Source: Simplicispira hankyongi
GTDB lineage: Bacteria > Pseudomonadota > Gammaproteobacteria > Burkholderiales > Burkholderiaceae_C
Assembly (NCBI RefSeq): GCF_003570885.1
Contig: NZ_QXJC01000001.1
Coordinates: forward strand, 682,001-746,000
Direction of reading: 5' to 3'
Length of the DNA: 64,000 nt
Positions within the stretch are counted from its first letter, which is position 1, and every line of letters begins with the position of its first letter. Position numbers and translations under genes: made by a program. Of the stretch, positions 8,298 to 13,312 are shown in pieces. A model generated the notes under the pieces. That model ran no database searches and was not told the origin of the DNA. It saw only the letters and a program-made list of their open reading frames with translations.

Positions 8298-8342
8298 CAT
8301 GGTTGCGGTACAAGCTATCAATAAAATAGCAAGTCGCTACGC

Positions 8343-9789: not shown

Positions 9790-11709
9790 TCAAGTTCTTT
9801 CGGCAACTGCGCTGGTAAGAAGTCGAATGAAATCATCGACTGGCATTACCCCGAGATCCTTGTTGCCTCGGGCGCGCACTGCAACGGCACCGGCTGCACG
9901 CTCTTTCTCGCCAGCGACGAGGATAAAGGGCAGCTTTTGCAACGAATGCTCACGTATTTTATACGTAATCTTCTCGTTTCGTAGATCCAGCGCGATGCGC
10001 AGCGGGTGCTGGGGCACCGCTTGCTGGATTTTTTCGGCAATTTCACGACAGTAATCGCCCTGCGCGTCAGTGATGTTCAGAATACCCACCTGCACCGGCG
10101 CGAGCCAGACCGGCATAGCCCCAGCGTGCTGCTCGATCAGAATACCAATAAAACGCTCCAGGCTGCCGACGATGGCACGGTGCAGCATGACGGGTCGATG
10201 TCGGTTGCCGTCCTCACCGACGTACTCGGCATCCAGCCGCTCTGGCATGGAGAAATCGACCTGGATCGTGCCGCATTGCCACTGGCGTCCGATGGCATCC
10301 TTGAGCGTGTACTCGATCTTGGGCCCATAGAACGCCCCCTCGCCCGGCGAAATTTCGTACGCGCAGCCCGAGGCGTCGAGGCTGGTGATCAGCGCTGCTT
10401 CTGCTTTGTCCCAGCTTTCATCCGAGCCAATGCGCGCATCGGGGCGCGTGGCGACCTTGTAGATAATGTTCTCGAATCCAAAGTCTTGGTACACCTTCTG
10501 AAGCAAAGCGGTATAGGCGGTGCATTCCGCAAGAATTTGGTCTTCGGTGCAGAAGATATGCCCATCGTCTTGCGTAAAGGCGCGCACACGCATGATGCCG
10601 TGCAGGCCGCCCGTCGGCTCGTTACGGTGGCACTGGCCAAACTCACCGTAGCGCAGCGGCAGATCCCGGTAGCTCTTGATGCCCTGCTTGAAGATCAGGA
10701 TATGCCCGGGACAGTTCATCGGCTTGAGCGCGTATTCGCGCTTTTCCGATTCGGTCGTGAACATGTTTTCGCGGTACTTGTCCCAGTGCCCGGTCTTTTC
10801 CCAGAGCGTCTTGTCCAGAATCTGCGGGCCTTTGACTTCCTGGTAGCCGTTGTCCTGGTAGACACGGCGCATGTACTGCTCCACTTCCTGCCACAGCGTC
10901 CACCCCTTTGGGTGCCAGAACACCGTACCAGGCGAATGCTCGTCGATGTGGAACAAATCCAGCTCACGCCCCAGCTTGCGGTGGTCGCGCTTCTCGGCCT
11001 CTTCCAGCATCGTGAGGTATTGCGCAAGCTCGTCCTTGGTCGCCCAGGCCGTGCCGTAGATGCGCTGCAGCATCTCGTTGCGGTGGTCACCGCGCCAATA
11101 CGCGCCTGCCACTTTCATCAGTTTGAAATGCTTGAGCTTGCCCGTGCTCGGGACGTGGGGGCCGCGGCACAAATCCTCAAAAGTGCCTTCGCGGTAAAGG
11201 CTGACATCCTCGCTGCTGGGAATGCTAGCGATGATTTCCGCCTTGTAATGCTCACCAATACCTTTGAAATACGCGACTGCTTCATCACGTGGCAGCACAC
11301 GACGCACCACTGGCTCGTCCCTGGCGGCAAGAGCCGTCATGCGTTTTTCGATGGCTTCCAGGTCTTCTGGCGTGAACGGGCGCTTGTACGCAAAGTCGTA
11401 AAAGAAACCATTTTCAATTACCGGGCCAATCGTGACCTGGGCATCCGGAAAAAGCTCCTTGACTGCATAGGCAAGCAAGTGCGCCGTCGAGTGGCGAATT
11501 ACGTCCAGTCCTTCAGCATCCTTTGCCGTCACGATAGAAAGCGGACTATCCTGGCTGATCAGATAACTGGTATCGACCACCTTGTCGCCCACTTTGCCCG
11601 CCAGGGCTGCCTTGGCGAGGCCTGAACCGATCGAGGCAGCCACTTCGCCAACGGTGACGGGGCCCGGATACTCGCGCTGCGAGCCATCGGGAAGGGTGAT
11701 GTGAATCAT
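9790..11709 (-). CDS. thrS: Threonine-tRNA ligase
   Basis: 639 residues. It has the TGS domain (1-61), the N2 editing domain with [18 protein letters not shown] and the zinc-type HxxxH, a class II core with MNCPGH and the [14 protein letters not shown] region, and the C-terminal anticodon-binding domain (about 535-639). It charges tRNA-Thr and edits Ser-tRNA-Thr. ATG start. The 80-bp gap to infC has no terminator, so both genes are probably cotranscribed. The 217-bp leader upstream carries a candidate attenuator, listed separately. Confidence 0.98.
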
Positions 11710-11758: not shown

Positions 11759-11785
11759 AAAAGCGCGGACCATGTCCGCGCTTTT
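11759..11785 (-). terminator. Candidate attenuator hairpin in the thrS leader
   Basis: Perfect 12-bp arms (11759-11770, 11774-11785) with a 3-nt loop. On the minus strand the GC-rich stem ends in TTTTGCTTTG, and it lies about 50 nt before the thrS start and about 40 nt after the stop of a Thr-rich mini-ORF. The arrangement fits a premature terminator controlled by translation of that leader. Confidence 0.6.
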
Positions 11786-11820
11786 CAGGTAAAAGTTGAA
11801 TCCTGTGCAGGCACGAACAG

Positions 11821-11837
11821 CCAGCCTCAGCGGCTGG
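11821..11837 (-). promoter_or_regulatory. First hairpin of thrS leader, overlapping the leader-peptide stop
   Basis: The 6-bp GC-rich arms 11821-11826 and 11832-11837 pair, with the leader-peptide stop codon lying across the stem-loop. A ribosome stalled on the Thr codons or released at the stop would affect this stem differently. Its role as a pause or antiterminator stem is inferred. Confidence 0.4.
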
Positions 11838-11868
11838 TAACCATCTCCGGTGTAGTTCGCGGTGTCAT
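11827..11868 (-). CDS. Putative thrS leader peptide, Thr-rich, 13 aa
   Basis: A mini-ORF reads MTPRTTPEMVTSR and stops with TGA: four of thirteen residues are Thr (codons ACA, ACT, ACA, ACC). An AAAGG motif lies about 10 nt upstream of the ATG. It sits between the aceA terminator and the thrS attenuator-like hairpin, in the leader of a threonyl-tRNA synthetase gene. Such regulatory-codon-rich peptides are the hallmark of ribosome-mediated attenuation. It is too short for similarity support, so the call rests on codon content and position. Confidence 0.5.
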   Translation of the reverse strand: MTPRTTPEMVTSR

Positions 11869-11926
11869 AACCAAAGTGCCTTTCTTGCCCTTGTTGGTGG
11901 ATTCTGCATTTCATTTTAACCGGTAC

Positions 11927-11961
11927 AAAAAAAGGCCCGCAACGAGCGTTGCGGGCCTTTT
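11927..11961 (-). terminator. Intrinsic terminator of aceA
   Basis: An 11-bp perfect GC-rich stem (11934-11944 with 11947-11957) is followed on the minus strand by a run of seven T. It lies 20 bp beyond the aceA stop and separates aceA from the thrS leader. The + strand side also has TTTT, so it may work in both directions. Confidence 0.9.

Positions 11962-11980: not shown

Positions 11981-13312
<1,332 letters not shown>

Follow-up and report, generated by a model that had tools for sequence, protein, structure and literature searches.

Threonyl-tRNA synthetase (ThrRS) genes are regulated in different ways in different bacteria. In Escherichia coli, ThrRS binds the thrS operator and represses translation, a textbook case of autoregulation, while the T-box riboswitches ahead of thrS in Firmicutes bind tRNA directly, with the charging of the tRNA controlling transcription termination. 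The E. coli thrL leader (Rfam RF00506) combines Thr codons, a leader peptide and a terminator, and pheM encodes the leader peptide of E. coli pheST. Eight ACC codons are described in the thrL leader, which controls the operon for threonine biosynthesis (PMC1183508), leader peptides are proposed for hisS and hisZ in bacilli (PMC2965389), and the autoregulation of E. coli ThrRS is mentioned (PMC2965389).

The region ahead of thrS in Simplicispira hankyongi, found in a 64,000 nt stretch of contig NZ_QXJC01000001.1 that was analysed as a whole (the window), is in our judgement likely to be a transcription attenuator of the ribosome-mediated kind, sensing the charging of Thr-tRNA and thereby setting how far transcription enters thrS and, probably, the genes behind it. 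As with pheM-pheST and the bacillar hisS and hisZ, a synthetase gene lies behind a terminator and a short leader ORF rich in cognate codons, but the amino acid, gene, sequence and pairing arms all differ. Thr codons, a leader peptide and a terminator are likewise shared with thrL, although the thrS leaders have one to six Thr codons, mostly starting with CGA-ACT. The gene and type of operon are those of the E. coli thrS operator, where control is translational, whereas a terminator and leader ORF are found here; control of thrS termination by tRNA charging is the feature that would be shared with the T-box of Firmicutes. No Rfam 15 family reached its gathering score on the leader, and T-box covariance models matched neither the window nor 16 relatives. 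RF00506 scored 28.4 and 25.8 bits in the window, below its gathering score of 55 and in both cases on the terminator of the upstream gene aceA, and gave no match in the 16 relatives at E up to 0.1. The type of mechanism is classical, and the gene, the group of bacteria and the codon pair appear to be new: no earlier description of a Thr leader ahead of thrS was found in the literature searched, which was thin in subscription papers.

On the minus strand, the order is aceA, its own terminator, a -10-like hexamer, a Shine-Dalgarno sequence, a 13-codon ORF, a hairpin over the stop codon, a terminator-like hairpin and thrS, as follows in window coordinates:

11981-13312, minus: aceA, the upstream gene (Pfam isocitrate lyase)
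about 11926..11961, strand given as (.): terminator behind aceA
11913..11918, minus: -10-like hexamer TAAAAT, 50 nt before the leader ATG
11879..11885, minus: Shine-Dalgarno of the leader ORF, AGAAAGG, which would pair with a 16S 3' end CCUUUCU
11827..11868, minus: leader ORF MTPRTTPEMVTSR, ATG at 11868, 13 codons of which four are Thr, stop TGA
11855..11861, minus: segment 1, CGCGAAC, inside codons 3-5; pairs with segment 2
11854..11859, minus: codons 4-5, CGA-ACT (Arg-Thr), the control site predicted from codon conservation
11821..11837, minus: hairpin over the stop codon, CCAGCC-GCTGA-GGCTGG, with covarying pairs
11811..11818, minus: segment 2, GUUCGUGC (GUUCGCGC in most rows of alignment A1, below), from A1 and the window's own fold
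11774..11781, minus: segment 3, GCGCGGAC, predicted to pair with segment 2 in the antiterminator, and part of the terminator 5' arm
11763-11770, minus: segment 4, in the terminator-like hairpin
11759..11785, minus: terminator-like hairpin AAAAGCGCGGAC-ATG-GTCCGCGCTTTT, 12-bp arms, tail GCTTTG
9790..11709, minus: thrS, threonyl-tRNA synthetase, first gene of thrS-infC-rpmI-rplT-pheS-pheT

Pfam matches identified ThrRS (TGS, SAD, tRNA-synt_2b and anticodon-binding domains), IF3, L35 and isocitrate lyase, and rplT, pheS and pheT were assigned by eye. A sequence-only reading of this DNA had reported an ORF of 13 codons with four Thr ahead of thrS, a hairpin over its stop and a 12-bp-arm hairpin about 50 nt before the gene; all three are present as described, the last ending 49 nt before the thrS ATG (11709). 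Because aceA has a terminator of its own, this thrS-proximal hairpin is not needed to end the aceA transcript, and that role was rejected for it. Its U tract is interrupted, and a simple terminator scan of the window did not list it; a promoter scan returned nothing on the leader's strand, the TAAAAT hexamer included. The unconstrained fold of 11925-11690 was unremarkable (z -1.05, with 33 of 200 shuffles folding equally well). Further along the operon, between rplT and pheS (8297-8251, minus strand), there is a hairpin ACAAGGGCTAG...CTAGCCCTTGT, after which comes TTCTTTTTC; a six-codon ORF without Phe codons, MTRARA, starts at 8300. This element may be another terminator or attenuator, in front of pheST.

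In the proposed mechanism, the leader RNA would start near 11906 and the short ORF would be translated at once. With ample Thr-tRNA, the ribosome would pass codons 4-5 (CGA-ACT) and reach the stop, where segment 2 would be either covered or paired with segment 1, leaving segment 3 free for the 3:4 terminator to form. When Thr-tRNA is scarce, the ribosome would wait at codon 5, and also at codons 6 and 11, masking segment 1; segments 2 and 3 would then pair, the terminator would come too late, and RNA polymerase would enter thrS.

The conservation of these parts was assessed using upstream regions of thrS from 26 genomes of the genus (24 with a match) and from the best 80 of 571 confirmed named stretches. 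Eight of 111 loci were dropped as the thrS start was missing, and removal of five duplicates from the resulting 103 upstream regions left 98 distinct ones. The leader block recurs in 70 of these, so the ORF is not a chance reading frame; of the other 28, 27 lack the motif and one, L106, has the motif without an ATG. Between ORF and gene, a script called an intrinsic terminator in all 70 ORF-bearing leaders, the call for L081 being poor. With L081 dropped, 62 of 69 leaders were kept after removing near-duplicates above 0.95 similarity, and 41 of these 62 rows make up alignment A1, from which divergent leaders were left out. Throughout the 41 rows GGTTATGACACCGCGAAC is unchanged, and the 18 nt around the leader start codon are invariant. 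This 18-mer occurs once in the window's own genome, plus one match with three mismatches, while a control pattern at up to three mismatches gave one forward and two reverse matches; given the uniqueness of the motif save for that one match, a wider regulon was rejected.

Signals expected of a transcribed and translated leader accompany the ORF. In 91 of 101 family leaders, a hexamer of the form TA[AGC]AAT or GAAAAT is found 22-85 nt ahead of the leader ATG, at a distance of 48-51 nt in 65 of the 91, as against 4-9 of 101 in eight sets of shuffled controls. The Shine-Dalgarno AGAAAGG, placed for translation of the ORF, precedes it in 85 of 101 leaders; GGATCACCTCCTTTCT, which we take to be the 16S tail matching it, has a single occurrence, presumably in a 16S gene, in the window's own genome. 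Synonymous changes in the ORF (0.38 against 0.28 expected) give a weak test, as the pairs compared are not independent. Two leaders are decayed: L063 reads MAVRTRFAKGLS and retains Thr 5, and in L106 ATA replaces the ATG.

Codon composition was examined in 174 distinct upstream regions, many of them fetched because they matched the covariance model, and 146 of these contained motif-bearing ORFs. The invariant Thr is codon 5, not codon 2: with a search pattern that contained codon 5 and tolerated three substitutions, codon 5 was Thr in 146/146 leaders (ACT 132, ACG 14), codon 2 was Thr in 139 and codon 4 was CGA in 130. Hence the ORF, its frame and a specific Thr codon persist among leader-bearing relatives, which the alignment suggested by the sequence-only reading was meant to test. 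Thr codons, numbering between one and six per motif-bearing leader, are also in excess just beyond the predicted stall site, making up 35.6% of the 436 codons at positions 6-8 compared with 10.8% of the 821 past codon 8. Variants such as MRPPTT, MTPLTT and MVPPTTT have lost Thr 2 or Arg 4 and kept Thr 5, suggesting that control is exerted at codon 5. In 30 long ORFs of the window, CGA accounts for 5.6% of Arg codons, and ACT and ACC for 6.3% and 54% of Thr codons.

Matches to the covariance model occur in 236 of 299 family genomes, covering 109 of 126 genera, and, across the order, in 60 of 399 genomes, 13 of the 60 being from the window's own family; the element extends beyond that family. 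Among 95 loci at model matches, thrS lies behind the match in 89. The six without it (L188, L192, L193, L195, L197 and L201) look like chance terminator matches and were discarded; the first five follow, by eye, a cold-shock-type gene. The thrS gene was present in all 150 sampled genomes of the order, and the sample from other families comprised 145 genomes, with 140 upstream regions fetched and five left out. An MTPRT-type motif was found in 16 of the 140, in 8 of 48 families. The 124 motif-less upstream regions included 30 with an ORF of at least three Thr in eight codons (five when shuffled), 18 with at least four (0/124 shuffled) and 78 with a called terminator (four shuffled); 24 had both a Thr ORF and a terminator, some of these being tRNA-gene artefacts. 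Examples of the peptides are MSFRTTTTGTLNLG, MFKRTTTTRISR, MQLNRTTTTS and MAVRTTTTHP. When runs of at least four of one residue in five codons were counted in the 93 upstream regions with a called terminator, Thr gave 14, Arg one and all others none; at three Thr in five codons, the contrast was blurred by a Val artefact (27 versus 25 of 93). Thr clusters occur on 15/140 reverse strands as against 35/140 forward strands, so that the reverse strand is not a clean control. By these criteria, most of the genomes sampled in the order lack a Thr leader, and those that have one are scattered over families. Beyond the order, 66 genomes of the class had thrS, one of them the window's own, and 29 upstream regions were read: one had three Thr in six codons and none had more, and a terminator was called in 12, so that finding a terminator in front of thrS is not in itself remarkable.

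In many of the other-family genomes (L209-L348), a tRNA gene, by eye for Val, seemingly lies directly upstream of thrS. The tRNA-type hexamer GGTTAG is found in 95 of the 140 upstream regions, and Rfam tRNA matches at 10 of 16 relative loci. Such genes yield artefactual Val-rich ORFs and some Thr clusters, and a terminator ahead of thrS in these families may belong to the tRNA gene. Sub-threshold matches to RF02194 (HPnc0260; 42.9-52.9 bits, gathering score 59), on the strand opposite thrS in 7 of 16 relatives, run across the tRNA-leader region (L181, L185, L238, L271, L282, L302 and L335) and are probably an effect of tRNA and terminator complements.

The invariance of 18 nt around the leader start in 41/41 rows is more than a leader peptide should need, and could reflect the binding of ThrRS, or another protein, to a conserved leader RNA that it represses, the ORF then being incidental; ThrRS autoregulation is, after all, established in E. 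coli. Yet the ORF, its Shine-Dalgarno and Thr codon 5 are all conserved, the unrelated leader RNAs of other families share only short Thr ORFs and a terminator, and by eye no anticodon-arm-like stem-loop surrounds GGUU. We consider protein-mediated repression improbable.

The codon pair at the predicted stall site also recurs outside the family. In the 35 Thr-cluster ORFs found without the hexamer, CGA precedes the first Thr in 20 and no other Arg codon does so, though in L241, one of the 35, a Thr further on is preceded by CGC. Given the clusters on reverse strands, chance probably accounts for a part of the 35. In 42 hexamer-found leaders (44 minus two), the Thr codon following CGA is ACT in 34, ACG in seven, ACA in one and ACC in none; among the Thr codons that come later, ACC is the most frequent (35/75). 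A base-pairing role for CGA-ACT outside the family was rejected, since a downstream GUUCG is at the level of shuffles (8/42 leaders, shuffle mean 7.5) and pairing therefore does not explain the pair there. CGA slows ribosomes and raises readthrough in his leader constructs (PMC4046918), which suggests by analogy that the CGA codon of Thr leaders may have a kinetic role. We tentatively raise the possibility, without regarding it as the likelier case, of an order-wide family of thrS attenuators whose peptides, RNAs and arms have diverged while the pair of a rare CGA and then ACT or ACG was kept at the stall site; the slow Arg codon, occupying the P site, would tune the sensor together with a chosen Thr codon in the A site.

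The arms of the leader take the form of a 1/2/3/4 attenuator, with predicted mutually exclusive pairings 1:2, 2:3 and 3:4 and the stall codons on segment 1. The predicted antiterminator is formed by segments 2 and 3 (11818-11811 with 11781-11774), in competition with 1:2, and not by the stop hairpin. In alignment A1, 99.0% of cells are paired in helix 1:2, 93.6% in antiterminator 2:3 and 94.3% in the terminator helix. Covariation, which the sequence-only reading had put forward as a check on the stems, bears out only some of them: four of five counted pairs of the stop hairpin changed on both sides, as did pairs in the terminator tip, but in helix 1:2 five of seven pairs never vary and none changed on both sides. 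Segments 1-3 hardly vary within the family, and covariation therefore does not prove their helices.

Switching was predicted as the upstream pairing of segment 3 with a ribosome at codon 5 minus that without a ribosome. For the 62 family leaders the mean was 0.274, with 28 above 0.3 and none below -0.3, compared with means of 0.000 to 0.088 and 4-8 above 0.3 in 15 shuffle sets. The 44 other-family leaders gave a mean of 0.165 with 12 above 0.3 (shuffles -0.023 to 0.061, 1-6 above 0.3). A set of 30 unrelated Thr leaders, remaining from 34 hand-picked ones after four without a called terminator were dropped, gave a mean of 0.114 against shuffle means of -0.056 to 0.043, the two leaders above 0.3 being no more than the 0-4 of the shuffles. 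Stalled pairing alone (mean 0.89 against a shuffle mean of 0.77 in 69 leaders) is not special, as the GC-rich segment 3 pairs upstream in shuffles too, and it remains high when the ribosome is placed at the stop (mean 0.83, 69 leaders).

Predicted switching is above shuffles on average, but static folds do not display it in the window's own leader, where segment 3 pairing is 1.00 stalled and 0.99 free. The full-length RNA is predicted to fold as 1:2 plus terminator (-52.5 kcal/mol), and the leader stalled at codon 5 before segment 4 is made adopts the antiterminator fold (-27.9). Before segment 4, the ribosome-free RNA slightly favours the antiterminator (-36.3 versus -34.4 kcal/mol with 1:2 forced), and the terminator is the preferred fold of the complete stalled RNA (-35.3). 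Since these folds do not show the switch, its operation must depend on timing. By eye, the antiterminator arm of several other families includes the stop codon or sits inside the ORF, in which case a ribosome at the stop would block the arm directly.

Relatives that lost the leader bear on whether the hairpin is instead a constitutive partial terminator, or a stabiliser of the mRNA 5' end, that the ORF does not regulate. A terminator-type hairpin is kept in 18 of the 28 motif-less family upstream regions, three of them from the window's genus, with tails poor in T in L080, L082 and L107. A -10-like hexamer precedes it in 16 of the 18, and in 14 the hairpin is only 22-36 nt past the hexamer, the median for 59 leader-bearing upstream regions being 136 nt; the ORF and the upstream arms have therefore gone together. 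The retention of hairpins where the ORF was lost had been named by the sequence-only reading as counting against attenuation, and to that extent it does; together with the short distance from the hexamer in 14/18, it also speaks for an unregulated hairpin. In nine such upstream regions (L013, L017, L018, L057, L070, L073, L076, L085 and L095), among others, the hairpin lies 33-36 nt after the start of the hexamer, at a distance of 18-73 nt from thrS. In leader-bearing upstream regions, however, the hairpin is conserved jointly with segments 1 and 2, and predicted switching exceeds that of shuffles, if more weakly in unrelated Thr leaders; an unregulated hairpin accordingly seems unlikely to us. 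Action in trans on other genes by the leader RNA or peptide released on termination, for which there are the very strong conservation of the 5' block and the trp leader peptide peTrpL reported to act in trans in Sinorhizobium (PMC7298713), is very improbable as an explanation when neither peptide nor RNA sequence is kept in other families, though it could coexist with attenuation.

The conserved ORF and arms and the predicted switching thus support, in silico, the ribosome-mediated attenuator that was first suggested from the window alone. From sequence and modelling, the leader and its RNA switch would very probably serve to raise the level of the thrS enzyme when charged Thr-tRNA is short. 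Another group of bacteria appears to control by transcription attenuation, on Thr-tRNA charging, the operon that in E. coli is translationally autoregulated. Such attenuation would tie the supply of IF3, L35, L20 and PheRS to one amino acid. The leaders also offer a comparative set for studying how attenuators exchange their RNA arms and still retain the stall codon, and they allow a direct test of what a slow codon does when it precedes the control codon.
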